Assembly: GCF_018613715.1 (NCBI RefSeq)
Contig: NZ_JAGGPT010000006.1
Span: forward strand, 620,001 to 684,000
Direction: 5' to 3'
Source: Chryseobacterium sp. ISL-6
Lineage (GTDB): Bacteria > Bacteroidota > Bacteroidia > Flavobacteriales > Weeksellaceae
DNA length: 64,000 nt
Shown: in pieces, positions 40,101-60,262 of the stretch
How positions within the stretch are numbered: the stretch's first letter is position 1
Layout: every line of letters starts with the position of its first letter
Program-made: the position numbers and the translations under genes
Notes under the pieces: model-generated
The model's database searches: none
Told to the model about the DNA's origin: nothing
Seen by the model: the letters and a program-made list of their open reading frames with translations, nothing else

Positions 40101-41551
40101 CGAGACTTCGTCCTGTTTTGATGACGGCAACAGTGGCCTCGTTAGGATTTTTACCAATGGCGATATCAACAGGAGCGGGGGCTGAGGTTCAAAAACCTTT
40201 GGCAACAGTAGTAATAGGAGGATTAATTTCAGCCACCTTTTTAACACTGTTTGTATTACCGATGCTGTATATGATTTTCAATACAAAAATTCCACTAAAG
40301 AAAATAAAAATGAAACCTCTGACAACAGTGATCATTCTTGGATTTTTAATGTTGGGGCAAACGTTAAATGCACAGTCTAAAACACTTTCTGTAGAACAGG
40401 CAGTAACAACGGCAGTAGAGAATAACCTGTCTTTAAAATCCAAGGACCTGAGTATTCAGGCTGCAGAAGCATTAAAACCCACGGCCAGGGAACTGCCAAA
40501 ACTCGGTTTTGACGCTCAGCTTGGTCAATATAACAGTCCAAAATTTGACCAGTCTTTTGCGATCTCACAAAGTATCCCATTTCCTACTATTTTTAAAGCA
40601 CGGAAAGACTTGATCACGGAAACAGTGAAAAGTAAACAGATCGATAAAGAAGTATCTGTTAATGAATTGGTAAAGCAGGTGCGTTCTTATTACTATCAGA
40701 TAGAATATCTGCAGTACAATAAATCGCAACTAAAGAATCTGGATAGCCTTTACCGGGATTTTATCCGTATTGCAACGGTAAGATTCAAAGCGGGGGATAT
40801 CAAAAAAATAGAAATAAGTACTGCTGAAACCCAACAGGGGGAAATCAACCTTCTGCTAAATCAAAATCAGGTGTACTTAAATAATGCCTATAAAAATCTG
40901 AAAGTTCTCTTAAATACTTCAGAGGATTTTGAAATTCCATTTAATGGAAATTATGAACCTTTAAAAGCTGAAAATGTTCTGGATATCAAAGCTGTTGATA
41001 ATAATCCGACGATAAAAGCTTTTTATCAGGAAATGGAAATTGCCGAAAGAAATAAGAGTGTCGAAAAATCGCAGGGACTTCCCGAGTTCAGTATTGGATA
41101 TACCAACCAGTCATTAATTGGATTATACCAAAAAAACGAACAAGATGTATTTTACAATTCAGGAAACCGTTTTAATTCTGTGACTTTGGGAATTGCTATT
41201 CCATTAACGTTCGGAGCTACAAAAGCCAGAATTAAATCATTAGAATATCAGAAGCAGGTTGCGGAAACCAATGCAAAATATAAAAAGAATCAGCTTTCCA
41301 CACAATTGGAAAATGCTTTTACCCAATATCAGCAGGATGCTCAGCAGTACGATTATTATGTGGGGCAGGCTATTCCCAACGCTGATAAAATAGTGAAGGC
41401 AGCACAATTAGGATATAGAACAGGAGAAATCACCTATGTAGAATATCTTTTTGCCTTACAGACAGCTACTAATATTCAATTAAAATACTTAGAATCTATT
41501 CAGCAGGTCAATCAATCTGTAGTTACTATTAATTCAATAATTAATAAATAA
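37193..41551 (+). CDS. czcA: CzcA-type heavy-metal RND efflux pump fused to a TolC-family outer membrane factor
   Basis: A 1452-residue fusion starting with GTG (MLDKIIKFSINNKFIIG, typical of CzcA/CusA). Residues 1 to about 1035 are the RND pump, with TM4 motif DFGLIVDGA at 401-409; this DFG...DG type is that of divalent-cation pumps (Zn/Co/Cd), not the Cu/Ag CusA type. Residues from 1040 (MKPLTTVIILGFLMLGQTLNAQ) look like a complete signal peptide followed by a TolC/CzcC domain (LSVEQAVTTAVENNLSLKSKDL, PKLGFDAQLGQYNSPKF) to the end. The stop is followed 1 nt later by the adaptor gene. Fusion of pump and outer-membrane factor occurs in several Flavobacteriia. Metal choice is inferred from the motif. 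Confidence 0.9.
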   Translation: MLDKIIKFSINNKFIIGIMTLLLIIWGVWSATRLPIDAVPDITNNQVQIITVCPTLAGQEVEQLVTFPIEQSIANVPGIEDTRSISRFGLSVITVVFKEDVDVYFARQLISEKLKEAAEEIPKGVGTPEMAPVSTGLGEVYQYILHPKKGSEKKYNAKELRTMQDWIVRRQLNGTPGVAEVNSFGGELKQYEVAINPNRLKAMGVSITDIFTSLEKNNQNTGGAYIDRKPNAYFIRGIGMVTSLEDVKNIAVKNETGSVPIFIKDVADVRFGSAVRYGAMTFNGKVDAVGGVVMMLKGANSNEVVDNIKAKIPTIQKSLPNDVVIEPFLDRTDLVGRAMKTVEKNLIEGALIVIFVLVVFLGNLRAGLIVASAIPLSLLFALGMMNVFGVSANLMSLGAIDFGLIVDGAVIIVESTLHILNHKSKGRLTQIQMDKEVGTAASKMMNSAIFGQVIILIVYIPILTLAGVEGKMFTPMAKTVGFAIIGATILSVTYIPMVSALFLSKNIKNKKTISDKIMDFLQRIYQPLLQKAIRLKYMIVSITIFIFVIAAFIFKGMGGEFIPQLQEGDYAFHCILPQGSSLSQSLETSMQASRIIKQFDEVKMVVGKTGSAEVPTDPMPPEATDMIVVLKPQSEWKTKKSYTELADEISEKLEAIPGVFFEKNQPIQMRFNELMTGIRQDVAVKIFGENLDSLSIYADKVGKAIQTVDGATAPQIEKVSGLPQINVEYDRTRIANYGLSIEDVNNALSTAFAGKSTGQVFENERRFDLVVRLDSLNRTNIDDVNNLMITTNTGAQIPLSQVANISYKLGPAQISREQGKRRIVIGFNVKGRDVESVVKDIQVKLEKQIKLPSGYYFTYGGQFENLQEASKRLTIAVPVSLFLIFMLLYFTFHSFKQAALIFTAIPMSAIGGIFALLLRGMPFSISAGIGFIALFGVAVLNGIVLIGTFNELEKEGEKDILKRVIEGTKTRLRPVLMTATVASLGFLPMAISTGAGAEVQKPLATVVIGGLISATFLTLFVLPMLYMIFNTKIPLKKIKMKPLTTVIILGFLMLGQTLNAQSKTLSVEQAVTTAVENNLSLKSKDLSIQAAEALKPTARELPKLGFDAQLGQYNSPKFDQSFAISQSIPFPTIFKARKDLITETVKSKQIDKEVSVNELVKQVRSYYYQIEYLQYNKSQLKNLDSLYRDFIRIATVRFKAGDIKKIEISTAETQQGEINLLLNQNQVYLNNAYKNLKVLLNTSEDFEIPFNGNYEPLKAENVLDIKAVDNNPTIKAFYQEMEIAERNKSVEKSQGLPEFSIGYTNQSLIGLYQKNEQDVFYNSGNRFNSVTLGIAIPLTFGATKARIKSLEYQKQVAETNAKYKKNQLSTQLENAFTQYQQDAQQYDYYVGQAIPNADKIVKAAQLGYRTGEITYVEYLFALQTATNIQLKYLESIQQVNQSVVTINSIINK

Positions 41552-41552
41552 A

Positions 41553-42800
41553 ATGAGAAAAAAACACATCATCATATATTTTACATTTCTTTCTTTATTC
41601 GTCATTAGTTGTGAGAAAAAGAAAGAGGTAGCTGAGACTGCTGCGGGGAAAACAGAACAGAAAGCTGAAAGCCCTGCAGAAGTTCCTCAGACGATTGCTT
41701 CACTTACAGAAGAGCAAATGAAAGCAGTAGGAATTACACTGGGAACCATTGAAATGAAGGAATTGACTTCAACGATCAAAGCAAATGGATTACTTAGAGT
41801 TCCGAACAACAATAAAGCAACAATAACTTCTCTATATGGAGGAATTATAAAAACACTCAATGTTCAGGTAGGAAGTTTTGTAAATAAAGGACAGGTAATT
41901 GCAACCATTGCAAACCCTGAATTCATTCAGCTCCAGGAAGACTATCTGACTACGAACAGCAGGATCACTTTTGCTGAACAGGAATACAGAAGACAGCGGG
42001 AGCTTTTTGATAATGATGCCGGAGCAAAGAAAAATCTTCAAAGCTCTGATTCGGAATTGAAGACGTTAAGAACAAGAAAGGCATCCTTGCTGAGACAACT
42101 TCAAATGATGGGAATAAATCCCGGAAGTGTAAATAATGCAAATATGAGATCCGGCCTGGTAATTACGGCGCCAATAAGTGGGACAATCAGTAGTATTGCT
42201 GCCCAGATAGGAAGCTATGTAGATGTTTCATCCCCTGTTGCAGAAATTATTGATAACCAATCGATACATTTAGATCTGCAGATTTTTGAAAAAGATCTGC
42301 CAAAAATGAGAGTGGGACAGATCGTACATTTTAAACTGACCAATAACCCTGAAACGGAATATGATGCAAAAGTGTATAGTATAGGGTCATCATTCGAAAA
42401 TGATAGCAAAACAATTTCTGTACACTGTAATGTTACAGGAAATAAAACAGGTCTTATTGACGGTATGAACATTACCGGAATCGTAAGTCTCGATTACAGC
42501 ACAACGCCTGCGATCCCTAATGAAGCAATAGTAGAAGCAGATGGAAAGTTTTATGTCTTTGTACAGACGGATAAAAAGCCGGAAGAGGATCATGATGAAG
42601 CTGAGATAAAAGCCGGGAAACCTAAAAAGAATATTAAAACAGTCAATTTTGAAAAAATAGAAGTTGTAAAAGGTTCTACTGATATGGGATATACGGCTGT
42701 TACTCCGGTACGGGAAATTGCTTCGGATTCTAAAATAGTTGTAAAGAGTGCATTTTTTGTCAATGCCAAGCTTACGAATGGCGGAGAACATGATGAATAG
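41553..42800 (+). CDS. czcB: Periplasmic adaptor of the RND metal pump (CzcB-like)
   Basis: A 415-residue lipoprotein: MRKKHIIIYFTFLSLFVISC puts the lipid-modified cysteine at residue 20. The lipoyl-like half-motif is VPNNNKATITSLYGGIIKTLNVQVGSFVNKGQVIATI, a helical hairpin follows, and SGTISSIAAQIGSYVDVSSPVAEIID is the second half, then the beta barrel. Acidic/His-rich stretches (EEDHDEAE and GGEHDE) near the C-terminus could touch metal. It links the inner-membrane pump to the outer-membrane factor in the periplasm. Confidence 0.92.
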   Translation: MRKKHIIIYFTFLSLFVISCEKKKEVAETAAGKTEQKAESPAEVPQTIASLTEEQMKAVGITLGTIEMKELTSTIKANGLLRVPNNNKATITSLYGGIIKTLNVQVGSFVNKGQVIATIANPEFIQLQEDYLTTNSRITFAEQEYRRQRELFDNDAGAKKNLQSSDSELKTLRTRKASLLRQLQMMGINPGSVNNANMRSGLVITAPISGTISSIAAQIGSYVDVSSPVAEIIDNQSIHLDLQIFEKDLPKMRVGQIVHFKLTNNPETEYDAKVYSIGSSFENDSKTISVHCNVTGNKTGLIDGMNITGIVSLDYSTTPAIPNEAIVEADGKFYVFVQTDKKPEEDHDEAEIKAGKPKKNIKTVNFEKIEVVKGSTDMGYTAVTPVREIASDSKIVVKSAFFVNAKLTNGGEHDE

Positions 42801-42839
42801 ATTATCTAAATAAAAACACAAATAAGAAAAAATTGAAAA

Positions 42840-43580
42840 ATGGCTTTAAAAGAAGAACTTGAAAAACAGGGAAACTGGCTGTTTAAATATAGAAGTACTT
42901 TACCGATAGGTATTTTATTTGTCGGTTTAGTAGTTTCTATCCAAACTAATTTAAAAGAAGAAACAAACAGCTGTACCATATTCTATGAATTTGCATGCTT
43001 ATTCGTAAGTATGATTGGCCTCGGAATTAGAATATACACAGTGGGATATACACCTAAGAATACGTCGGGAAGAAATACTTCGGAAGGGCAGGTGGCTGAT
43101 ACTCTTAATACAACAGGAATTTACAGCGTAGTAAGAAATCCATTGTATTTGGGAAATTTCTTTATGTGGTTAGGCCTTGCAATGTTTACAGAGAACTTAT
43201 GGTTTATCATTTCTTTTGTTCTTTTTTACTGGATCTATTACGAAAGAATTATATATGCAGAAGAACAATTTTTAGAAAGAAAATTTGGTGAAAAATATAG
43301 ATCATGGGCAGATAAAGTACCGGTTTTTATCCCTAACTTAGGGTTGTTTACAAAGAATGAGTTGTCTTTTAGTATAAAAAAGGTGCTGAAGAAAGAAAAG
43401 AACGGGCTTTTTGCCATGTTTCTGATTTTCATGGTGTTTGATTTAATTGGGGAATGGATTAGAAATCATTCTGATCATAACTTATTTTTCATTTCAGGAA
43501 CTATTTTTACAATGATTATTTACATTGTACTTAAAGTGTTAAAAATGAAAACAGGTTTTTTGGAAAATAATAGATCGTAA
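42840..43580 (+). CDS. Integral membrane isoprenylcysteine carboxylmethyltransferase-like protein
   Basis: A 246-residue protein with about five or six membrane segments. GIYSVVRNPLYLGNFFMWLGLAM is the S-adenosylmethionine-binding region of the ICMT/PEMT family, and YYERIIYAEEQFLERKFGEKYRSWADKVP the conserved acidic tail motif. Such proteins are often found near metal efflux genes, but their bacterial substrates are not known. A role in methylating a lipid or thiol group in the membrane is possible. The start is 39 nt after the adaptor gene. Confidence 0.82.
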   Translation: MALKEELEKQGNWLFKYRSTLPIGILFVGLVVSIQTNLKEETNSCTIFYEFACLFVSMIGLGIRIYTVGYTPKNTSGRNTSEGQVADTLNTTGIYSVVRNPLYLGNFFMWLGLAMFTENLWFIISFVLFYWIYYERIIYAEEQFLERKFGEKYRSWADKVPVFIPNLGLFTKNELSFSIKKVLKKEKNGLFAMFLIFMVFDLIGEWIRNHSDHNLFFISGTIFTMIIYIVLKVLKMKTGFLENNRS

Positions 43581-43610
43581 AGGATTAAAACTTAATTAAA
43601 AAGAACAATT

Positions 43611-44492
43611 ATGTTATTAAATAAAAGATTATCCATTTGGTATTTCGTCAATGAAATAAAATCTCAGATGCTTTTCCTCTTTATATTTGCTGTATCCATA
43701 GGACTTTTAGATTTATTACCTGGATTTCGTAAGATATCACTTCCATTGAATGTGCCTGCACTTATAGGAACTGCAGTATCTCTGTTATTGGCTTTCCGTA
43801 CTTCACAATCCTATGAGCGATGGTGGGAGGCAAGAATTGTTTGGGGAGCTATTGTGAATGACTCGCGGACTTTTGTAAGATTGGTCATGCAATTTTTACC
43901 GGAAGGTCATGATAAAGAAGTTGAGAAGTTTGCTGAAAGACAGATTGTCTGGACGTACGCACTTGGAGAATCCTTAAGAAAACAGCCTTTTTCTGATCGT
44001 GTACAGGATTATCTGGGTGCAAATAAAATTTCGGGGTTTAATATTCCTAATGCTTTGCTCGATGAACATTCTAAGCAGGTTAAAGAAATAATGTATGCAA
44101 AATCTATTTCAGAATTTCAGCAATTACAGCTTAATGATGCAATAACTAAACTTTGTGACAGTATGGGAAAATGTGAACGGCTTAAAAATACTGTTTTTCC
44201 GAGATCCTATAGTATTTTAGTTCATGTGTTAATTTATGTGTTTGCGGCTATACTGCCATTTGGTCTGGATGATAACCAGTTAATAGTTGAGATCGCACTT
44301 ACTTTTTTGGTTCCCACTATGTTTATTGCCATTGAGAGAACATCTATTATCATGCAGGATCCATTTGAAAATACTCCTGTTGATACACCAATGACTTCCC
44401 TGGCGCAGACTATAGAAATTAATCTGAGACAGATGATTGGAGAACAAAATGTTCCTATGAAGAAAGAGAATCCTTTATACTATGAAATGTAA
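43611..44492 (+). CDS. Bestrophin-family anion channel
   Basis: A 293-residue membrane protein of the bestrophin/RFP-TM family: RTSQSYERWWEARIVWGAIVNDSRTFVRL is the hallmark region, and FGLDDNQLIVEIALTFLVPTMFIAIERTSIIMQDPFENTPVDTPMT the conserved end with the PFxxxxxD-type cluster. Family members form pentameric anion channels; some bacterial forms conduct cations (Klebsiella bestrophin is sodium-selective). Its place between metal efflux genes suggests charge or counter-ion balance during metal export, which is inference. Confidence 0.88.
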   Translation: MLLNKRLSIWYFVNEIKSQMLFLFIFAVSIGLLDLLPGFRKISLPLNVPALIGTAVSLLLAFRTSQSYERWWEARIVWGAIVNDSRTFVRLVMQFLPEGHDKEVEKFAERQIVWTYALGESLRKQPFSDRVQDYLGANKISGFNIPNALLDEHSKQVKEIMYAKSISEFQQLQLNDAITKLCDSMGKCERLKNTVFPRSYSILVHVLIYVFAAILPFGLDDNQLIVEIALTFLVPTMFIAIERTSIIMQDPFENTPVDTPMTSLAQTIEINLRQMIGEQNVPMKKENPLYYEM

Positions 44493-44509
44493 TTAAACCT
44501 ATTTCTGAA

Positions 44510-45409
44510 ATGATGAACGAAAAAAACACACAAACCGCTTCGGCGGCAAGTAAACACAAAAAAAATCTTCTTCTTGTATTAGCTTTAAGTGGAACCTACC
44601 TTATAGCCGAGGTTATTGGAGGTGTTATTACTAACAGTCTTGCATTATTAGCTGATGCCGCACATATGCTTACCGATGTGGTGGGATTGCTTCTGGCATT
44701 TATCGCCATAAAAATAGGGGAGCGTAAAGCTGATTCTAAAAAAACTTTTGGCTATTACCGAACAGAAATATTAGCGGCTGTAATTAATGCTGTAGTACTA
44801 CTTGGAATTTCCCTGTATGTTTTGTATGAAGCTTATCAGCGATTTCAGAATCCACCGGAAGTGCAGAGTAAATCGATGTTGATTGTCGCAGGAATTGGTT
44901 TAGTTGTTAATATTGTTGGCATGATGATCCTTAGAAAAGATTCCGAGGCAAGTCTGAATATGAAAGGAGCTTATTTTGAAGTGCTTTCAGATATGCTTAC
45001 CTCAATAGGGGTGATGATTGCTGGTGTGATTATGCTTACAACCAATTGGTATTATGCAGATCCATTGATCTCAGCAGCCATTGGATTGTTGATCTTTCCA
45101 AGGACATGGCGCCTTCTGAAAGAAGCTGTAAATGTATTATTGGAAAGCACACCTAAAGATGTAGATATAGATCTTCTTCGTAAATCCTTAGAACAAATTC
45201 GCGGAGTAAAAAGCCTTCATGATCTTCATGTATGGTCACTTACTTCAGGAATTAATGCAATGAGTGCTCATGTTGTTAAAGACGATACGATTACTCAGAA
45301 TCAGTTGCTGGAAGCCCTTACAGAAGAGGCGATGACCAAGTTTAAAATCAGTCATACGACCTTTCAGATAGAGGAGGAGGGATACAAGGAAGGGGCTGTC
45401 CATTCTTAA
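44510..45409 (+). CDS. czcD: Cation diffusion facilitator (CDF) metal exporter
   Basis: A 299-residue CDF with six membrane segments. TM2 has ADAAHMLTDVVG (His-x3-Asp) and TM5 has YFEVLSDMLTSIG (Glu-x3-Asp in place of the more usual His-x3-Asp). The C-terminal cytoplasmic domain follows (VKSLHDLHVWSLTSG and AHVVKDD). It exports Zn2+, Co2+ or Cd2+ with proton antiport, matching the pump and ATPase of this island. A second start codon follows at 44513. Confidence 0.94.
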   Translation: MMNEKNTQTASAASKHKKNLLLVLALSGTYLIAEVIGGVITNSLALLADAAHMLTDVVGLLLAFIAIKIGERKADSKKTFGYYRTEILAAVINAVVLLGISLYVLYEAYQRFQNPPEVQSKSMLIVAGIGLVVNIVGMMILRKDSEASLNMKGAYFEVLSDMLTSIGVMIAGVIMLTTNWYYADPLISAAIGLLIFPRTWRLLKEAVNVLLESTPKDVDIDLLRKSLEQIRGVKSLHDLHVWSLTSGINAMSAHVVKDDTITQNQLLEALTEEAMTKFKISHTTFQIEEEGYKEGAVHS

Positions 45410-45424
45410 TTAAAATAGCAGAAA

Positions 45425-45844
45425 ATGAAAAAAGAGATAGAAAATAAACTGATAGATAAAAATACCAAACCGACAAGTATGCGGATTCTGGTATATGATT
45501 TTTTAAGCTCTCAGGAAATGGCTTTATCGTTGTCTGAAATTGAAAATTCTTTTGACAACGCGGACAGGACAACAATTTACAGGACGTTGAAAACCTTTGA
45601 AGAAAAAGGGATTGTTCATAGTATACAGGAAAATACAACAACCAAGTATAAACTTTGTGATGATGATTGTGATGAAAAAACACACAAAGACTGGCATCTT
45701 CACTTCTACTGTAAGATTTGTAAGCAAACCACATGTAAGGAAGATATTTCGTTTCCGGAAAATATACAGACAAATTTCAGGATTGATGAAATAAGACTTT
45801 TTGCCAAAGGTATTTGTGAAACCTGTCTTGAAAGTTTGCAATAG
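45425..45844 (+). CDS. Fur-family metal-dependent transcriptional regulator
   Basis: A 139-residue Fur-family protein. The winged helix includes RTTIYRTLKTFEEKGIVHSI, and the dimer/metal domain includes WHLHFYCKICKQTTC and GICETCLESL, two Cys-x2-Cys pairs for structural zinc as in Zur/Fur/PerR. CDDDC adds further cysteines. It lies 15 nt after the CDF gene. Its stop codon lies inside the 17-bp palindrome at 45836-45852, and a matching palindrome precedes the pump operon, so it likely represses both. Zur-like or another divalent metal sensor; not settled. Confidence 0.92.
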   Translation: MKKEIENKLIDKNTKPTSMRILVYDFLSSQEMALSLSEIENSFDNADRTTIYRTLKTFEEKGIVHSIQENTTTKYKLCDDDCDEKTHKDWHLHFYCKICKQTTCKEDISFPENIQTNFRIDEIRLFAKGICETCLESLQ

Positions 45845-45852
45845 TATTGCAA
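45836..45852. promoter_or_regulatory. 17-bp operator TTGCAATAGTATTGCAA before the P-type ATPase
   Basis: Inverted repeat TTGCAATA-G-TATTGCAA that includes the last codons of the Fur-family gene. It ends 12 bp before the -10 box TAATTTTG (45865-45872), exactly the spacing seen at the pump operator 37099-37115. See the finding. Confidence 0.75.
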
Positions 45853-45864
45853 CTGTTTTAAAAT

Positions 45865-45872
45865 TAATTTTG
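45865..45872 (+). promoter_or_regulatory. -10 box of the P-type ATPase gene
   Basis: TAATTTTG matches TAnnTTTG and lies 16 nt before the ATPase start. The standard -33 position falls within the 17-bp palindrome. Confidence 0.55.
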
Positions 45873-45888
45873 TTGAAAATTATAAGTT

Positions 45889-47847
45889 ATGGAAAAATGC
45901 TGTGATACAAAACCTCAAGAAAAAAAGCACGATCACTTTGAAGGAGACGGCCATGATCATGGGCATTCTCACGATACGTCGGATAAAACAACGTTTCAAT
46001 TATTCTTACCTGCGGTGATCTCTTTTATTCTTTTAATGATAGGGGTTGCTTTAGATAATTATATAAAAACAGAATGGTTTACCGGTTGGGTTCGTATCGC
46101 TTGGTATTCAGTGGCATATATTCCTGTAGGACTTCCCGTATTAAGAGAAGCTTATGAAAGCATTATAAAAGGTGATGTTTTTTCAGAATTCTTTTTAATG
46201 GGAATTGCGACAGTAGGGGCATTTGTAATTGCACAATATCCGGAAGGAGTAGCCGTAATGCTGTTTTATGCTGTAGGAGAGGTATTTCAGGCATTGGCTG
46301 TTACCAGAGCGAAAAGTAATATTAAATCACTATTAGATCAGCGTCCCGATGAGGTGACGGTTTTAAAAGATGGTCAGCCACAAACTGTAAAAGCTGAAAC
46401 TGTAGGTATTGGTGAAATTATCCAGCTGAAGTCTGGAGAGAAATTAGGGTTGGACGGCGAATTACTTTCTGAAACAGCAGCGTTTAATACAGCAGCCCTT
46501 ACAGGGGAAAGTAAACCTGATACAAAATCAAAAGGTGAAACAGTTCTGGCTGGAATGATTAACTTAAATACAGTAAGTCAGATTAAAGTGACTACTGCTT
46601 ATCAGGACAGTAAATTAAGTAAAATTTTGGAACTCGTTCAAAATGCAACTGCCCAGAAAGCACCAACCGAATTATTCATCAGAAAATTTGCAAAAGTATA
46701 TACCCCGATTGTGGTGCTTCTTGCCATAGCAATTACCTTATTGCCTTATTTTTTTGTAGCGGATTATCAGTTTAGAGACTGGTTATACAGAGCCTTAGTG
46801 TTCTTGGTGATTTCTTGTCCTTGTGCTTTGGTAATTTCTATTCCATTGGGATATTTTGGCGGGATTGGAGCCGGAAGCAGAAATGGGATCTTGTTTAAAG
46901 GAAGTAATTTCTTAGATGCTCTTGCTAATATTCAGAATGTGGTGATGGATAAGACCGGAACCATGACAGAGGGCGTTTTTAAAGTTCAGGAAGTAGATTT
47001 TAAACCTGAATTTGATAAAAATGAAATATTAAAATTGGTCAATGTTTTAGAAAGCCAGAGTACCCACCCTGTAGCAACGGCTATCCATGAATATGTAGGT
47101 GAAATAGATCACTCGCTTCCTTTAGAAAATGTAGAAGAAATTGCTGGACATGGATTGAAAGCAACAATTAACGGAAAGGAATTGTTAGTTGGAAACTTCA
47201 AATTAATGGATAAGTTCAATATTACCTACGATATTAATCCTGATCATATTGTATATACCCTGATTGCAGTAGGTTATGATAAGAAATTTGTAGGATATCT
47301 TACCATTGCAGACCGTATTAAAGATGATGCTCAGCAGACGATCAACAAGCTAAGAGCATTGAACATAAAAACAACCATGCTGAGTGGTGATAAAACCTCA
47401 GTGGTAAAATATGTAGCAGATACTTTAGGAATTCAGAATGCTTATGGGGATTTACTTCCGGAAGATAAAGTGAATAAAGTAAAGGAGATCAAGGCTAAAA
47501 ATGAAACGGTTGCCTTTGTCGGAGATGGAGTGAATGATGCACCCGTTGTCGCTTTAAGTGATGTAGGAATTGCAATGGGTGGATTAGGAAGTGATGCAAC
47601 AATTGAAACCGCTGATGTTGTGATACAGGATGATATGCCGAGTAAAATTCCGATGGCAATTCATATTGGAAAGAAAACAAAACAGATCGTTTGGCAGAAT
47701 ATCATCTTGGCATTTGTTGTTAAAGGAATTGTTTTAATTCTGGGAGCCGGAGGTTTGGCAACCATGTGGGAAGCTGTATTTGCGGATGTAGGAGTTTCTC
47801 TGATTGCGATCCTGAATGCCGTAAGAATACAAAGAATGAAATTTTGA
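45889..47847 (+). CDS. P1B-type metal ATPase, Zn/Cd/Pb class (ZntA/CadA-like)
   Basis: A 652-residue P-type ATPase. Key motifs are CPC at residues 310-312, the phosphorylated Asp354 in DKTGTMTEG, ALTGES and GDGVNDAP from 545. The last membrane helices have VVKGIVLILGAGGLATMWEAVFADVGVSL; the Lys and Asp there mark the P1B-2 class for Zn2+/Cd2+/Pb2+, and CPC with this pair argues against cobalt or copper. It lacks the usual N-terminal HMA domain and instead has a short His-rich tail (HDHFEGDGHDHGHSHD), a possible metal-binding or sensing tail. It lies beyond the Fur-family gene with its own promoter and operator. Confidence 0.93.
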   Translation: MEKCCDTKPQEKKHDHFEGDGHDHGHSHDTSDKTTFQLFLPAVISFILLMIGVALDNYIKTEWFTGWVRIAWYSVAYIPVGLPVLREAYESIIKGDVFSEFFLMGIATVGAFVIAQYPEGVAVMLFYAVGEVFQALAVTRAKSNIKSLLDQRPDEVTVLKDGQPQTVKAETVGIGEIIQLKSGEKLGLDGELLSETAAFNTAALTGESKPDTKSKGETVLAGMINLNTVSQIKVTTAYQDSKLSKILELVQNATAQKAPTELFIRKFAKVYTPIVVLLAIAITLLPYFFVADYQFRDWLYRALVFLVISCPCALVISIPLGYFGGIGAGSRNGILFKGSNFLDALANIQNVVMDKTGTMTEGVFKVQEVDFKPEFDKNEILKLVNVLESQSTHPVATAIHEYVGEIDHSLPLENVEEIAGHGLKATINGKELLVGNFKLMDKFNITYDINPDHIVYTLIAVGYDKKFVGYLTIADRIKDDAQQTINKLRALNIKTTMLSGDKTSVVKYVADTLGIQNAYGDLLPEDKVNKVKEIKAKNETVAFVGDGVNDAPVVALSDVGIAMGGLGSDATIETADVVIQDDMPSKIPMAIHIGKKTKQIVWQNIILAFVVKGIVLILGAGGLATMWEAVFADVGVSLIAILNAVRIQRMKF

Positions 47848-49618: not shown

Positions 49619-49978
49619 TTGAAGTTTTTCATATCCATATTCATTATTTTTACCATTGCAATACGTCCTGTTTTGCCATTGATCAATTATGCGGTGAATT
49701 ACGATTATATTGTAAAGAATCTTTGTGAAAACAGAGCAAAGCCCGAATCTACCTGTAAAGGGAAATGTTATGTTGAGAAAGAATTGGCTAAAACTGAAAA
49801 ACAATCCGGACCGCAAACGATAAAAATCTCCGTATTGGATGTATTCCTTTCCAATGAAATTCTTTATTTTTCCAGAGAAAAAGGATTTGATATCTTACAA
49901 AAGACAGCTAATTCAGGCTATCTGAATTCTCATACTACAGAATATTTCGCTAAGGTTTTTCATCCCCCTTTATCATAG
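49619..49978 (+). CDS. Small membrane-anchored C-x9-C-x3-C protein (copy 1, TTG start)
   Basis: A 119-residue protein starting with TTG (MKFFISIFIIFTIAIRPVLPLINYAVNYDYIV). It is collinear with the protein at 51766-52134 from the first residue on: R16-P17, P20, Y24-A25-V26-N27-Y28, Y30, L35-C36, K41-P42-E43, C46, G48 and C50 all coincide, which fixes the TTG start. After an N-terminal membrane segment come three cysteines (C36, C46, C50). A TATATTTG -10 box lies at 49594-49601. It precedes the YHS and SCO1 genes, so a role in copper or other metal handling in the periplasm is plausible. No known function. Confidence 0.78.
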   Translation: MKFFISIFIIFTIAIRPVLPLINYAVNYDYIVKNLCENRAKPESTCKGKCYVEKELAKTEKQSGPQTIKISVLDVFLSNEILYFSREKGFDILQKTANSGYLNSHTTEYFAKVFHPPLS

Positions 49979-50114: not shown

Positions 50115-50390
50115 ATGAAACATAAACTCATTTTGACAGCTCTGCTGTCTATATCACTGCTGTCCTGTGCCCAGGAAGCTCCTAAGGTTAAGCATAGTAA
50201 AAGCATGGATACTCCTAAAGAGAATCTTAAAAATGTAAAAGTTGTGAATGCCGAAGATCCTGTCTGTCATATGAAGACCGCCGATTATTTAAAGTTTACA
50301 GCAACCTATAAAAATAAGGTGTATGGTTTTTGCAGTGCTTCCTGTAAAAACGAGTTCAATAAAAATCCTGAAAAATATGTCCAGAAATAA
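50115..50390 (+). CDS. YHS-domain lipoprotein
   Basis: A 91-residue lipoprotein (MKHKLILTALLSISLLSC, lipid-modified Cys18). The YHS domain spans about residues 44-90: EDPVCHMKTADYLKFTATYKNKVYGFCSASCKNEF holds C51, C73 and C77, a set typical of YHS domains that bind copper or other metal. The stop overlaps the SCO1 start by 14 nt, so the two are coupled. It may pass copper to the SCO1 protein; that is inferred. Confidence 0.85.
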   Translation: MKHKLILTALLSISLLSCAQEAPKVKHSKSMDTPKENLKNVKVVNAEDPVCHMKTADYLKFTATYKNKVYGFCSASCKNEFNKNPEKYVQK

Positions 50391-51060
50391 AACAACAGCC
50401 AAAAGTGCGAAAAGCAAGATTGTAATTCCTATTGCCATCATTGCATTGATCTTCCTGGGTGTAGGTTTTGGAATGAGCTATTTTAAAAAGAATCTTTATA
50501 CCGTAATGAAGGTTCCTGATTTTGAACTTACCGACCAGAATAATAAAAAGATCAGCCATAAAGATATGCTCGGGAAAGTATATCTCGTAGAATTTTTCTT
50601 TAGTAAATGTCCAACTATTTGTCCCGTGATGAATAGCAATATGAAGGCTATTGAAGAACAGATCAACAGTCCTGAATTTGGCATTATTTCTATTAGCATA
50701 GATCCGGAGAATGATACTCCAGAAGCTTTAAAACAACATGCTGAAAGACTAGGCGTAAAATCTCCAGACTGGCACTTTTTAACGGGCGACAGAACCTATA
50801 TTGGAAGTCTTGCCGATAAATTCAATATCTATGTAGGGGATAAAGAAGATGAAGGGGAAAGTCTTAACCACAGTGGGATGATTGCTCTTGTGGATCAGGA
50901 AGGAAATATCCGATGCCGGTATAACAAAGACAATATGCCTGTTCTTTACTACTCCGGACTAAACTACAAAGATCCCGAGGGAAAAGAAACGCAGCTTACA
51001 GGGAAATACCATCCTGACAGGGAAAAGCTGATTGAAGATATTAAAAAGTTATTACATTAA
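50377..51060 (+). CDS. SCO1/SenC family copper chaperone-like thioredoxin
   Basis: A 227-residue protein from the ATG at 50377, with a membrane anchor at about residues 15-33 and the SCO domain outside. SKCPTICPVM puts the CxxxC copper site at C78 and C82, with the conserved ligand histidine at H165 in LNHSGMIAL. SCO1 proteins carry copper to cytochrome oxidase CuA or keep thiols reduced. The frame opens earlier at 50323, but that start lies inside the YHS gene and gives no anchor. The neighbours (YHS, exported SOD, MbnP/MbnH) suggest periplasmic copper handling. Confidence 0.92.
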   Translation: MSRNKTTAKSAKSKIVIPIAIIALIFLGVGFGMSYFKKNLYTVMKVPDFELTDQNNKKISHKDMLGKVYLVEFFFSKCPTICPVMNSNMKAIEEQINSPEFGIISISIDPENDTPEALKQHAERLGVKSPDWHFLTGDRTYIGSLADKFNIYVGDKEDEGESLNHSGMIALVDQEGNIRCRYNKDNMPVLYYSGLNYKDPEGKETQLTGKYHPDREKLIEDIKKLLH

Positions 51061-51087: not shown

Positions 51088-51762
51088 ATGAAGGTTATGA
51101 AAATAGCTGCATTAAGTGCAGTTTTCGCGGCGCAATTTGCTTTTGCTCAGTTTAAGCAAACACCACTATCTTACGCTTACAATGCGTTAGAAGGGTCAAT
51201 TGATGCACAGACAATGGAAATTCATTATACAAAACATGCTGCTGGTTATGTGAGTAATCTGAACAAGGCTATTGCCGGAACTCCGCAGGAGAAAGAAACT
51301 TTGTTTCAAATTCTTTCTAAGGTTTCGACACTGAGTCCTGCTATCAGAAATAATGCCGGCGGACATTTTAACCATGAGCTTTTCTGGACGATGTTAACGC
51401 CTGTGAAAAACACCCAGCCATCGGCTAAATTATTAAAAGCAATTACTGAGACTTTTGGCAGTCTTGATGCTTTTAAAGAGAAAATAGGTAAAGCAGGTGC
51501 TGAGCGTTTCGGCTCCGGATGGGCTTGGCTTTCTGTTGATAAAAATGGGAAACTATTCGTTTCTTCAACGCCTAACCAGGACAATCCTTTAATGGATGTT
51601 GTAGAGGAAAAAGGAACTCCTGTTTTAGGGATTGATGTTTGGGAACATGCTTATTACTTAAAATACCAGAATAAGAGAGCTGATTATCTGGCTGCTATCT
51701 GGAACGTGCTGAACTGGAAAGAAGTAAGTACGAGATATGAAAATGCGATAAGCAAGAAATAA
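51088..51762 (+). CDS. sod: Exported Fe/Mn superoxide dismutase
   Basis: A 224-residue iron/manganese SOD with a signal peptide ([21 protein letters not shown]). Metal ligands are in [11 protein letters not shown] (first His), [13 protein letters not shown], and the [15 protein letters not shown] block (Asp and His). The enzyme removes superoxide in the periplasm, an unusual place for the Fe/Mn class, most of which are cytoplasmic. It lies 27 nt after SCO1 and 3 nt before the second small C-x9-C-x3-C gene, so these are likely one transcription unit. Confidence 0.93.
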
Positions 51763-51765
51763 TTC

Positions 51766-52134
51766 ATGAACTATATTTGCAGCATATTCCTTACTTTTTA
51801 TATGGTGTTCAGGCCTCTGATCCCCATCATGGAATATGCTGTAAATTATAATTATATCGTTGAAACACTTTGTATCAATAAAGATAAACCAGAACTTAAC
51901 TGTAATGGTATATGTTATTTAAGCAAAGAACTGGCTAAAACCAATGATACAGAATCAACGCCTTTATCTAAGGGAAAAACTTCCGGACAAAAGATTCTCG
52001 ATATTTATATCCTTCCGGAAATTACAGAAATAAAAAACACAGATCAAATATATCGGATCAATTTCAATTTTATCTATCAAAAGAATTATTCTTTTCTTTT
52101 TCTAAAACTAATTTTCCGGCCGCCGGTTTTTTAA
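51766..52134 (+). CDS. Small membrane-anchored C-x9-C-x3-C protein (copy 2)
   Basis: A 122-residue paralogue of the protein at 49619-49978, with the same order R16-P17, P20, Y24-A25-V26-N27-Y28, C36, C46, G48, C50 and a similar end (FLKLIFRPPVF versus FAKVFHPPLS). The extra Cys at residue 5 is within the N-terminal membrane segment. It starts 3 nt after the exported SOD. No known function; the two copies bracket the YHS, SCO1 and SOD genes. Confidence 0.78.
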   Translation: MNYICSIFLTFYMVFRPLIPIMEYAVNYNYIVETLCINKDKPELNCNGICYLSKELAKTNDTESTPLSKGKTSGQKILDIYILPEITEIKNTDQIYRINFNFIYQKNYSFLFLKLIFRPPVF

Positions 52135-52201
52135 GTTGTCTGTATATTTTTAACCACAAATTTTAATCTGAGTTCAGGACAAAAGTGACTGACGTAAGAC
52201 C

Positions 52202-52259
52202 GAATGTTTTTCGAAATACAGGAGGTGACCCTGCGAACGTAGTTCAGAAGAGAAATGTA
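52202..52259. repeat. Dispersed 58-bp repeat, copy A
   Basis: The segment with CCTGCGAACGTAGTTCAGAA matches the reverse complement of 55683-55740, which also has that 20-base core exactly. The two copies face each other and flank the MbnP-MbnH-outer membrane protein genes. The gap 52135-52443 otherwise shows only short degenerate repeats and the palindrome at 52381-52400. Confidence 0.7.
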
Positions 52260-52380
52260 CCGGGATCTTTTCGTAAGACTTCACTGTTACTCAATCATCC
52301 TTAACCTGGGTTAATAATAAGACCTTCCCTTTAAGATGCAAAAGTATCTGGAGCTGTTGTGGCTTTTGTGGTCAAAAAAA

Positions 52381-52400
52381 TGAATGTTTTTTAACATTCA
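52381..52400. promoter_or_regulatory. Perfect inverted repeat before MbnP
   Basis: TGAATGTT-TTTT-AACATTCA, an exact 8-4-8 inverted repeat 44 nt before the MbnP start. It could be an operator or a small hairpin. No second copy was seen. Confidence 0.35.
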
Positions 52401-52443
52401 AATTATATTCTATTTAAACAAATACAACTTAAAAAAATCAACA

Positions 52444-53280
52444 ATGAAAATTTATAAATTTTTATCATTATTCTTTATTGCCTTTACCCTATTTGCAGTT
52501 TCTTCATGTCAAAACAATGACGATGATGATCATCCACAGGATACAACACCAGGAAATCTTCAGATCAAATTTGAAAATGGTTTTAATAACCTGGGTGGAA
52601 TTGTTCTCAATCAGACTACACAAACTTCTTCGAGTGGACAAAAACATCAGTTTTCAACTTTAAAATATATTGTAAGCAATATCAGTTTAATAGATGAAAA
52701 CGGAAAAGAATTTAAATACAATGAAAACAATCCCGATAAAGGGGCTTTTATCATTGACCAGGCGGATGCAGTGGCTGGAATTGTCTATGTAAATCTTACC
52801 GGAGTTCCGAAAAATAACTACAAAAAAGTGAAATTCGGATTGGGAATTAGTCAGAATGCTTATTTACTTGGAATGGATGGGCAGGCAGAATTCTGGAATA
52901 GAGCAAAGGCGAAAGGAATGTCATGGTCCTGGGCTGCAGGATATGTTTTTGTAAAACTGGAAGGTAAATATGGAAGCAATACAGCGGATAAAGAGTTTAT
53001 GAACCACACCGGAAATATGGGGAATGTGACGGCTAATAATACACCGGATTTATACAGGGAAATTACTTTAGATCTTCCTACCACAGCAAGAGTTACCAAT
53101 AAAATAAGACCGTCTATTCATATTCTTGCGGATCTTAATCAGTATTTAAGTGGAAATACACCGCTTACATTAACTACTGCCAATGACATGATGATGGGAT
53201 CAAGCCCACATTTGGTAAACGTAACCAACAATCTAACGAAGATGTTTTCTGTAAATCATGTCCATAATGATGAAGATTAG
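52444..53280 (+). CDS. MbnP-family periplasmic copper-binding lipoprotein
   Basis: A 278-residue lipoprotein from the ATG at 52444 (MKIYKFLSLFFIAFTLFAVSSC gives the lipid-modified cysteine). The mature part LQIKFENGFNNLGGIVLNQ begins the MbnP-type beta domain, and FWNRAKAKGMSWSWAAGYVFVKLEGKY with W161 and W163 matches the family's M-x-W-x-W-x2-GY region. In methanotroph MbnP a tryptophan is oxidised to kynurenine by the partner MbnH to build a copper site. The MbnH-like gene is next and overlaps. The family call is good; kynurenine here is inferred. Confidence 0.85.
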   Translation: MKIYKFLSLFFIAFTLFAVSSCQNNDDDDHPQDTTPGNLQIKFENGFNNLGGIVLNQTTQTSSSGQKHQFSTLKYIVSNISLIDENGKEFKYNENNPDKGAFIIDQADAVAGIVYVNLTGVPKNNYKKVKFGLGISQNAYLLGMDGQAEFWNRAKAKGMSWSWAAGYVFVKLEGKYGSNTADKEFMNHTGNMGNVTANNTPDLYREITLDLPTTARVTNKIRPSIHILADLNQYLSGNTPLTLTTANDMMMGSSPHLVNVTNNLTKMFSVNHVHNDED

Positions 53281-54319
53281 GGGTTTATTAAAAGTGGTGT
53301 TAATAGGTATTGGCTTTTTTAATATCGTATCATGTTCAGATGAGGTGATTGAGCCTTTAGAAAAAGATGAAGCTTATGCTCTTCAGTTTCCTGCTTATTT
53401 TCCTGAAATGAGTTTCGATCAGGCTGGAAATCCTGTTACCAGAAATGGAGTGGAGCTGGGACGGAAATTATTCTATGAAGGGAGGCTTTCACGTAATAAT
53501 ACGATTTCATGTGGTTTTTGTCATATTCAGGAAAATGCTTTTACCCACCACGGACATAATGTAAGCCATGGAGTGGATGACAGGATAGGAATACGAAATG
53601 CGCCGCCTATTCAAAATATGGCATTTTTAAAAAGATACATGTGGGACGGAGTGATCCATAACCTTAATGAGCAGCCAATTATTCCAATTACTGATGCTAA
53701 TGAGATGGATAGCTCTATGCCGGAAGTAATTTCTAAATTAAATTTAGATGACAAGTACAAAAAGCTCTTTAAAGCAGCTTATGGTGATGAAAATATTACC
53801 GGGGAAAGGGTACTGAAAGCTTTATCTCAGTTTATGGTCACCATGATTTCTGCAGATTCAAAGTATGATCGCTATAAACAGGGAAAAGAAACGCTGACAT
53901 CAGCTGAATCGCAGGGAATGGCTTTGTTTCAGCAGAAATGTGCTTCCTGTCACAGCGGAGAACTGTTTACAGATGAAAGTTTCCGGAATACCGGAATGTA
54001 CTATAATACTCAGTTTAAAGATGCTGGCCGCTACCGGGTGACATCAGATCAAGTGGATTGGATGAAATTTCGGGTGCCTGGTCTGAGGAATGTAGAATAT
54101 ACAGCGCCGTATATGCATGATGGGCGGTTTTATACGTTGGATGCCGTTCTCAATTTTTATTCGGATAATGTAGAGGACAATCCTAATCTTGATCCACAGT
54201 TAAAACAAAACGGGCATATTGGAATTGCGATAAACAGTACAGAAAAACAATCCATCATTGCTTTCCTGAAAACGTTATCTGACAAGAATTTTATAACCAA
54301 TCCAAAATTCTCGGAATAA
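53270..54319 (+). CDS. MbnH-like di-haem cytochrome c peroxidase family lipoprotein
   Basis: A 349-residue protein from the ATG at 53270 (an earlier one exists at 53258). A lipoprotein signal (IGFFNIVSC) leads to the di-haem peroxidase domain with haem sites CGFCH (from C81) and CASCH (from C224). The C-terminal AINSTEKQSIIAFLKTLSD is usual for the family. The start overlaps the MbnP gene, so the pair is coupled. MbnH uses a high-valent di-haem to modify a Trp of MbnP; a simple peroxide-removing role is the alternative. Confidence 0.9.
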   Translation: MKIRGLLKVVLIGIGFFNIVSCSDEVIEPLEKDEAYALQFPAYFPEMSFDQAGNPVTRNGVELGRKLFYEGRLSRNNTISCGFCHIQENAFTHHGHNVSHGVDDRIGIRNAPPIQNMAFLKRYMWDGVIHNLNEQPIIPITDANEMDSSMPEVISKLNLDDKYKKLFKAAYGDENITGERVLKALSQFMVTMISADSKYDRYKQGKETLTSAESQGMALFQQKCASCHSGELFTDESFRNTGMYYNTQFKDAGRYRVTSDQVDWMKFRVPGLRNVEYTAPYMHDGRFYTLDAVLNFYSDNVEDNPNLDPQLKQNGHIGIAINSTEKQSIIAFLKTLSDKNFITNPKFSE

Positions 54320-54332
54320 ATTTTAATTCAAC

Positions 54333-55286
54333 ATGAAAAACATAATTATAACACTATTTAGCCTGTTGATATTTCCAATAGCTCAGGCTAAGCCAGTTAA
54401 AGACAGCCTTTATATTCCCGAAAATAGTTTTAGTTCAATGGTATTTTTGGATGATGATTGTGATGCCTGTGGTTGTGCTGCCGGCAATGGTTCATCAGGC
54501 TTTGAGTCTTTACTGAATCCACAGTTTATCGGGATAAAATATTTTGCTCAGCATTATAAAGCAAAAGAGAATCTTTTTGTAAAAGATCTGACGCAGGATC
54601 AGTATTTCAATACCATTCAATTGTGGGGAAAAGTTCCCATTACAAAGAAATTAAGTGTTTATGGAAGTCTTCCTTTTCAATTCCATGAGAAAAAGACCAT
54701 GCAGGGTGATATTAAAATCAATGGACTTGGTGATCTTAATCTTATGGGAATCTATCAGCTGATCAGTTCTAAAGATTCCTCACACCAATTAAACGGTGGA
54801 TTGGGGGTAAAAGTTCCGCTGGGGAAATTTGATGAAAAAGGTATTACGGGAGTTAATCCAAGTTTTCAGCTGGGAACAGGGAGCTGGGATTATCAGATGG
54901 TTCTGAATTATAAATATCAAAAAAATAAAGTAGCCCTGATTGTTAATACAGATTATACCGTTAAAACTGAAAACAGGAAATATTATCAGTTTGGTAACCA
55001 GTGGAATTATGCAGCAACAGGATTCTATCAGATCCATGCGGATAAAAAGGTGATCTTTTCAGGGAAAGTTGGGCTGCAGGGTGAAGTTTATGACCGGAAT
55101 AAGCAGTTTGATGAAGCCTTACCGGATACTGCCGGAAGCGCATTATACGGAAAACTGGGTTTCGAACTTTCCTATAGCAAGTGGAGTCTCGGAAGTGAGG
55201 TGATGCTTCCCGCTTATACGAATCTTGCCGGTGGAAATATTGAAGCCAAATCCAGATTCAGTGTCTTTATCAACTTTGGAATTTGA
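54333..55286 (+). CDS. Outer-membrane barrel protein with CxxCxC motif, partner of MbnP/MbnH
   Basis: A 317-residue protein with a signal peptide (IFPIAQA) and then DDDCDACGCAAG with cysteines at 43, 46 and 48, a compact metal-binding-like motif. The remainder shows regular beta strands with aromatic ends (GLGDLNLMGIYQLIS, GGLGVKVPLGKF, SVFINFGI at the end), as in an outer-membrane barrel of the transporter/MetA-pathway-like type. It follows the MbnH gene by 13 nt and probably moves or holds the same metal. Substrate is unknown. Confidence 0.75.
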   Translation: MKNIIITLFSLLIFPIAQAKPVKDSLYIPENSFSSMVFLDDDCDACGCAAGNGSSGFESLLNPQFIGIKYFAQHYKAKENLFVKDLTQDQYFNTIQLWGKVPITKKLSVYGSLPFQFHEKKTMQGDIKINGLGDLNLMGIYQLISSKDSSHQLNGGLGVKVPLGKFDEKGITGVNPSFQLGTGSWDYQMVLNYKYQKNKVALIVNTDYTVKTENRKYYQFGNQWNYAATGFYQIHADKKVIFSGKVGLQGEVYDRNKQFDEALPDTAGSALYGKLGFELSYSKWSLGSEVMLPAYTNLAGGNIEAKSRFSVFINFGI

Positions 55287-55660: not shown

Positions 55661-55682
55661 TTTATTATAAGAATGTTCTCGA

Positions 55683-55740
55683 TACATTTTTCTTCTGAAC
55701 TACGTTCGCAGGATTACATCCCGTATTACGAAAAACACTC
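55683..55740. repeat. Dispersed 58-bp repeat, copy B (inverted to copy A)
   Basis: TTCTGAACTACGTTCGCAGG is the exact reverse complement of the core in 52202-52259, with 5' and 3' similarity along about 58 bp. A third piece with CTTCCGAACTCCGTTCGC lies at 59860-59877. The gap 55287-56106 is mostly such repeat-like sequence. Confidence 0.7.
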
Positions 55741-59978: not shown

Positions 59979-60007
59979 TTGTTTCTAAGCAGAATTTTCT
60001 ATCTTTG
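59979..60007 (+). promoter_or_regulatory. Promoter of the cobalamin-regulated operon
   Basis: TTG at 59979-59981 and TATCTTTG at 60000-60007 with an 18-nt spacer fit the Bacteroidota pattern. Transcription would start near 60013, directly at the riboswitch. Confidence 0.65.
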
Positions 60008-60009
60008 CC

Positions 60010-60175
60010 GGATTCTGGTGAGCCATAAAAAGCTCTTAATAGGGAATCCGGTGTAAATCCGGAACAGACCCGCTGCTGTAAGCTCTACAAAAGTTTTTGA
60101 AGCATATATCCACTGTTTTTTTAATGGGAAGGATTTCAAAAATAGAGTAAGTCAGAAGACCTGCCGGAAAGATTA
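60010..60175 (+). ncRNA. Cobalamin (B12) riboswitch
   Basis: The conserved core is plain: GGGAATCCGGTGTAAATCCG, GAACAGACCCGCTGCTGTAA then GTAAGTCAGAAGACCTGCCG. These are the P2-J and B12-box parts of cobalamin aptamers. It precedes a BtuB-like receptor by about 120 nt. Confidence 0.93.
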
Positions 60176-60262
60176 AAGTTTGATGCTTTCGTGGAATAAA
60201 GCTTAGGACAACAATGATTCTGTGCAGTTATAGCTGTACAATATCGTTGCTGCTTTCTTATA

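Follow-up and report, generated by a model that had tools for sequence, protein, structure and literature searches.

An MbnP/MbnH-type gene pair with a cysteine-bearing outer-membrane channel and a CutF/CruR-like leader in Chryseobacterium: a possible copper-capture operon

The DNA considered here is a window of 64,000 nucleotides from Chryseobacterium sp. ISL-6 (assembly GCF_018613715.1, contig NZ_JAGGPT010000006.1, positions 620,001 to 684,000), and the system in question is a run of three open reading frames on its forward strand at 52444–55286. They encode an MbnP lipoprotein (52444–53280; the listed frame opens at 52384), an MbnH di-haem enzyme (53258–54319) whose frame overlaps the MbnP stop, and an outer-membrane barrel of the PF13557/COG4313 type (54333–55286), referred to below as the channel. 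The original prediction of an MbnP-like lipoprotein, an overlapping di-haem partner and a barrel was borne out by the Pfam scan, with PF20243 for MbnP (131.1 bits against a curated cut-off of 27), CCP_MauG for MbnH (E 2.8e-55) and PF13557 for the channel (38.8 bits, cut-off 22). It overlooked a small CutF/CruR-like protein encoded upstream on the same strand (leader 2, 51766–52134), a block of YHS, SCO1 and superoxide dismutase (SOD) genes with a leader of its own, and an H-x-H tail at the C terminus of MbnP.

The mature MbnP begins at the lipobox cysteine C22 with C-QNNDDDDH and carries M159-x-W161-x-W163 (52918–52932), H188-x-G190 and, at its C terminus, H272-V-H274-N. W161, W163, H188 and G190 are invariant and M159 is nearly so in 28 Bacteroidota MbnP rows, the window included; the two tryptophans had already been singled out in the original prediction. 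A profile of MbnP relatives matches the solved MbnP 7l6g at E 0.0021, aligning WxW and HxG, and M159 and H188 of the window protein align with a Met and a His of 7l6g. Modelled with AlphaFold, the window MbnP (mean predicted local distance difference test score, pLDDT, 82.5) fits 7l6g with Z 14.8 over 218 residues at 16% identity (root-mean-square deviation 3.8), the next entry reaching only Z 5.7, and 7l6g is also the top Foldseek match of the model (E 1.2e-7). Surface-export signals of the type QKDDE, SDDDD and SDDFE have been published for this phylum, and the resemblance of the mature start C-QNNDDDD to these signals makes it likely that MbnP faces outward on the cell surface.

MbnH is likewise a predicted lipoprotein (C26, mature start C-SDEVIE), with CxxCH motifs at residues 85 and 228, W129 and Tyr301. 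Its nearest solved chain by sequence is 6e1c (E 9.9e-47), entered under the name 'Di-heme enzyme', which we take to be MbnH; 7l6g and 6e1c are reportedly the MbnP–MbnH pair of Methylosinus trichosporium described by Manesis et al. in 2021. Tyr301 aligns with a Tyr in 6e1c and with a Met in the bacterial peroxidase 3o5c, at what is presumably the position of a haem axial ligand. Tyr occupies this position in 70 of 74 Bacteroidota MbnH-like frames and Phe in the other 4, while Trp129 is present in 56 of the 74.

The channel carries C43, C46 and C48 in a CDACGC motif (54459–54476, forward strand) within an N-terminal segment ahead of the first strand. In line with the cysteines noted in the original prediction, C43 and C46 are invariant in 21 rows and C48 also in the 9 nearest, the window being included in both counts. 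The nearest named channels, from Chryseobacterium, show 89% identity in a comparison from which records of the window's own genome were perhaps omitted. The AlphaFold model (pLDDT 76.8) has 12–13 strands, with low confidence for residues 18–56, which hold the cysteines. The best solved folds are the COG4313 channel 4rl8 (E 1e-10, template modelling (TM) scores 0.62/0.72) and then FapF. Because the N-terminal residues of 4rl8 are described as folding inward from the periplasmic side of the barrel, the cysteines of the window channel may sit in the barrel lumen.

MbnP was found in 51 of 198 Bacteroidota genomes, a leader-type small protein in at least 79 and a channel relative in at least 72, the counts for channel and leader being lower bounds, since at most 12 and 21 candidates per genome, respectively, were scored. 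All 22 strong channel matches (above 280 bits) adjoin MbnP, and the next scores are 199, 197 and 154. High scores were to be expected, since the profile had been built from 21 channels beside MbnP, namely 20 of the strong matches and that of the window; the weight of the scan lies in the finding of no equally strong match away from MbnP. Among 20 weaker relatives that were fetched, 17 have no N-terminal CxxC, and the 3 that have it (CDICGC, CDSCGG and CDFCIA) each stand beside a small protein and never beside MbnP. At five loci a leader is followed by a cysteine-free channel relative and SCO1 in an operon lacking MbnP, and at one of them the next gene encodes PCuAC.

The H-x-H tail of MbnP and the CxxCxC motif of the channel occur together. 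In a first set of 70 MbnP frames, H-x-H was seen near either end of the protein in 21 of 22 frames with an adjacent channel and in 1 of 48 without; a second set, drawn from different genomes, comprised 51 frames (of 52 new places all but one, which was under the cut-off, were fetched) and gave 15 of 18 and 5 of 33. The rule of a terminal H-x-H at either end was set before the second set was drawn; the restriction to a C-terminal H-x-H was adopted with both sets already seen. On pooling the 121 Bacteroidota frames, the C-terminal H-x-H was present in 32/32 MbnPs with a CxxCxC channel, 0/8 with a CDFC-type channel, where 4 of the 8 have an N-terminal H-x-H instead, and 5/81 with no channel. One of these five exceptions does have a CEICGC channel, placed some 2.2 kb downstream and two genes further along the same gene run; its reassignment gives 33/33 where the run includes a CxxCxC channel, 4/80 without a channel and 0/8 for the CDFC type. 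More distant channels were sought only in the genomes of five frames, all of them exceptions (four of the second set and one of the first), tail-less frames of the second set lying outside this search. All of these counts are inflated by the relatedness of the genomes, and a tree built from 58 MbnPs requires 5 changes in the channel label and 6 in the state of the tail. In the model of the window MbnP the tail lies on the last strand (residues 268–277). Three distant MbnPs have His-rich C termini, and no channel was found in their genomes.

Gene order was compared in 81 loci, comprising the window and the best 80 of 454 channel relatives, which by title belong to Chryseobacterium, Elizabethkingia, Epilithonimonas, one Weeksellaceae and one Flavobacteriaceae bacterium; a narrower channel alignment was used for the contig scan, the whole-phylum alignment being too varied. 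The order small protein–YHS–SCO1–SOD–small protein–MbnP–MbnH–channel is kept in 73 of these Chryseobacterium-group loci, which argues that the three-gene arrangement is not due to chance. One further locus is similar with the two leader-headed blocks swapped, as fits the behaviour of separate modules, and the remaining 7 show other or shorter forms that retain MbnP–MbnH–channel. H-x-H stands near the MbnP C terminus in 81/81 loci and WxW is present in 80/81; the channel motif is CDACGC in 80 and CDTCGC in the remaining one.

Leader 2 starts three bases past the dismutase stop and has 122 residues, with C36, a CNGIC motif (51901–51915) and a Pro-Pro (52120–52125) two residues before its end, followed by 309 bases to the MbnP start. 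In size, Pro-Pro position and distance to the next gene it agrees with the published rules for CutF-like leaders (fewer than 150 residues, a Pro-Pro no more than 15 residues from the end and a downstream same-strand gene within 1000 bases; PMC9973294). Its N terminus is hydrophobic as judged by eye. In 24 diverse leader rows, C36, C46, G48, C50, P119 and P120 (leader 2 numbering; leader 1 aligned) are invariant, unlike most of the stretch between the Cys and the Pro-Pro, which is variable. The Pro-Pro lies at most 9 residues from the end in 63 of 64 leader relatives, at a spacing from the CxxxC of 61–70 residues (median 67, standard deviation 2.0); the sole relative lacking it is a 100-residue frame from a genome whose match contains an internal stop. 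Leader relatives stand ahead of TonB-receptor, PepSY_TM, PCuAC and SCO genes, and nine neighbour proteins scanned from 5 of 40 fetched loci comprise three TonB receptors, two PepSY_TM proteins, one PCuAC, one YtkA, one BNR_2 and one protein with no match. Judged from these sequence features, leader 2 looks like a copper-sensing leader of the CutF/CruR kind, and its family may be one of the clusters in the CutF or CruR surveys, the former of which (PMC9973294) has 29.

Leader 2 matches no Pfam or NCBIfam family. Membership of DUF2946 (PF11162), the family of CruR, was considered and rejected: neither leader of the window matches this profile, no match exists in the genome, and the matches found in 5 of the 198 Bacteroidota genomes (2 over the cut-off) are situated away from the leader matches. 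Two of them, inspected by eye, are His-rich small proteins with weak DUF2946 similarity and ends bearing a Pro-Pro motif, encoded ahead of receptor-like genes (locus L144, 1399–1794; locus L147, 1369–1776), and perhaps represent another type of metal-sensing leader in Bacteroidota.

The intergenic region between leader 2 and MbnP (52135–52443) contains a repeat element (52202–52270) and a hairpin (52381–52400). An inverted copy of the repeat at 55672–55740 lies on the other side of MbnP–MbnH–channel, and the genome has the element at 5 places in total, counting these two; other Chryseobacterium carry different inserts in the same gap. In Chryseobacterium the hairpin stands some 50 bases ahead of the MbnP start. 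Its pairing holds in 95.4% of 281 cells, against 22–40% for slid alignments, and 4 of the 6 pairs show changes on both sides, as tested on 52 of 75 loci that were picked by ourselves (19 of the 23 omitted fail a loose pattern); the loose pattern locates the hairpin in 44 of the 75. An inverted repeat acting as a genome-wide operator was considered and rejected: the window holds one perfect match, but 1.28 matches are expected with three mismatches allowed. Nor could the long gap be retained as proof of a CruR-type mechanism, the argument being weakened because the repeat element fills part of it and because the distance from leader to MbnP ranges from 37 to 1711 bases in the 75 loci by our own start assignment.

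The upstream block, also on the forward strand, begins with leader 1 (49619–49978), which has a TTG start, contains CKGKC and ends in FHPPLS. It is followed by a YHS-domain protein (50115–50390; PF04945, 47.7 bits, cut-off 30.3), a SCO1/SenC copper chaperone (50377–51060; PF02630, 105.6 bits; the start is a chosen one, the listed frame opening at 50323) and an Fe/Mn SOD (51088–51762; PF02777/PF00081) with an N terminus that by eye resembles a signal peptide. Further upstream, at 37193–47847, lies a metal-efflux-like cluster whose genes, named by eye, are a fused resistance-nodulation-division (RND)/outer-membrane factor frame of 1452 residues, a membrane-fusion protein, a cation-diffusion facilitator (CDF) and a His-rich P-type ATPase. 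A cobalamin riboswitch (101.1 bits) is situated at 59999–60182. The original statement that no methanobactin genes are visible holds for MbnB, the best match to which, elsewhere in the genome, scores 20.4 bits against a cut-off of 325, the other mbn genes having been outside the search; a link to methanobactin was rejected on this MbnB result.

We tentatively read the locus as a low-copper, outer-membrane copper-capture operon serving copper uptake under the control of a copper-repressed leader, and consider this reading to fall slightly short of an even chance. The idea of a copper route in which the barrel forms the outer-membrane step, already put forward in the original prediction, fits the evidence and is carried into it with the same reserve. 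Both MbnP and MbnH would be lipoproteins, MbnP at least probably facing outward, and MbnH, driven by peroxide, would oxidise W161 of MbnP to kynurenine and so make it a Cu(I)-binding protein, H188 and M159 being the likely partners; the peroxide might come from the neighbouring, putatively secreted SOD, a guess from gene order. The H-x-H tail would then hand copper to the CDACGC segment of the channel, and the barrel would admit it to the periplasm, to be received perhaps by SCO1 and the YHS protein. The nascent chain of the leader would sense copper through its CxxxC and, by means of the C-terminal Pro-Pro, stall or free the ribosome as in CruR. Two considerations favour uptake as the direction of transport: leaders of the same family are also found ahead of TonB receptors, and CruR, with a similar long gap, represses with copper.

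A number of observations weigh against this reading. TM-scores of the MbnP model to 7l6g in Foldseek are only 0.41–0.49. The pair misses both NCBI equivalog models, TIGR04052 for MbnP (44.3 bits against a cut-off of 140) and TIGR04039 for MbnH (239.1 against 362.85), and its two proteins are therefore divergent members of their families. The window MbnP, whose one cysteine is that of the lipobox, lacks the four-Cys motif that the 7l6g record names and that we take to define TIGR04052. As regards the tail and the channel, only three independent contrasts fall on supported branches of the tree, of which on average 2.7 are concordant, 0.3 show no difference and 0.0 are opposite (p 0.25). The weaker relative with CDICGC adjoins a leader instead of MbnP; the family of 4rl8, the closest solved relative of the channel, has been proposed to take up hydrophobic molecules; and the efflux-like cluster lies 4.6–15 kb upstream of MbnP. 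The direction of transport, moreover, is not readable from the leader, because CutF is induced by copper.

The main rival, in our estimation rather unlikely, is a system of efflux and detoxification of copper or mixed metals, in which the channel would act like PcoB, MbnP would buffer surplus copper and a CutF-like leader would switch the genes on with copper. PcoB does share the barrel outline (PMC12509749), CutF uses a CxxxC motif in its response to copper, efflux-system genes are the most frequent neighbours of CutF-like genes (PMC9973294), and RND, CDF and P-type ATPase-like genes are at hand in the window. However, between that cluster and leader 1 stand one more gene and then a 423-base gap, the leader family stands ahead of TonB receptors and PepSY_TM genes in an uptake-like context, and the neighbours SCO1 and PCuAC are oxidase-assembly chaperones (PMC9426467).

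It is also conceivable, and clearly unlikely in our view, that MbnP and MbnH bind copper in the known way while the channel merely accompanies them or conducts a different solute, the leader being no more than a common small membrane protein. The link of COG4313 channels to hydrophobic substrates, the 17 of 20 fetched weaker relatives with no N-terminal CxxC and the lack of curated annotation for the leader family would agree with this. Against it stand the 22 of 22 strong channel matches beside MbnP (with a profile made from 21 such channels), the joint occurrence of H-x-H tail and CxxCxC, and the invariance of Cys and Pro-Pro in the leader, in contrast to most of the sequence between them. 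A modified-tryptophan protein made by the pair for a non-copper purpose, such as redox sensing or another metal, appears very improbable: the low identity to the characterised MbnP would allow it, whereas the conservation of W161, W163, H188 and, nearly, M159, together with the copper-type neighbours SCO1, YHS and the leaders, argues for copper.

The passage of copper across the Gram-negative outer membrane is poorly known (PMC8610252). If the uptake reading is true, Bacteroidota use a protein-based, TonB-independent copper route with an oxidised-tryptophan copper site, controlled by a nascent-chain copper sensor that has no DUF2946 match, and the rule relating tail and channel offers a sharp test of the copper hand-off. 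That the locus amounts to a complete, self-regulated route of outer-membrane Cu(I) uptake in Bacteroidota, dispensing with chalkophore and TonB and combining a kynurenine-type surface protein, an H-x-H hand-off to a channel with a Cys plug and control by a nascent leader, seems to us fairly doubtful. The occurrence of the pair outside methanotrophs, proposed in the original prediction, is real here and not novel: its conservation far beyond methanobactin producers was reported in 2013 (PMC3621798), and MbnPH-like genes in copper operons headed by CruR in 2022 (PMC9426467). What appears to be new is the combination of MbnP/MbnH with a channel that bears cysteines, a matching His tail and a leader of this family; no Bacteroidota operon with these three features was found among the literature matches listed, and the 2021 MbnP study may describe part of this operon.

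The MbnP–MbnH pair of Methylosinus trichosporium belongs to the same families and shares the MbnP fold, WxW, HxG and, in the di-haem enzyme, a Tyr at the position of the ligand; the window differs in having no MbnB in the genome and no four-Cys motif, and adds the H-x-H tail, the CxxCxC channel and the upstream leader. The system may also be likened to CorA/MopE with CorB/SACCP, a copper-repressed surface kynurenine copper protein with a co-transcribed di-haem peroxidase; no channel or leader of its kind is described in the excerpted part of that report (PMC3912023). The window channel resembles the COG4313 channel Pput2725 (4rl8) and FapF in fold, in the 12-strand outline and in an N-terminal segment before strand 1, whereas CDACGC in this segment is a trait of the window channel that the excerpts on Pput2725 do not mention. 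PcoB/CopB likewise has a 12-strand barrel and a disordered N terminus rich in metal-type residues, but these are His and Met instead of Cys and the function is efflux (PMC12509749); the window channel belongs to PF13557, with no CopB family among its Pfam and NCBIfam matches.

As for the leaders, CutF has a CxxxC and a Pro-rich end, and Bacteroidota account for 40% of CutF-like proteins when normalised and 19% without normalisation (PMC9973294). CruR, with CXXC and RAPP, governs a copper-repressed TonB transporter across a long gap to the next gene, and the genes listed behind leaders of its type encode TonB receptors, PepSY_TM, ScoC, PCuAC and MbnPH-like proteins (PMC9426467). In contrast to CruR, the window leader has no DUF2946 or other Pfam match, carries CxGxC ten residues after a third Cys, and shows a Cys–Pro spacing of 61–70 instead of 45. 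With CruR and CutF, both of them exported, it shares the design of a small leader with a Cys motif and a Pro-Pro near its end, encoded upstream of copper genes.

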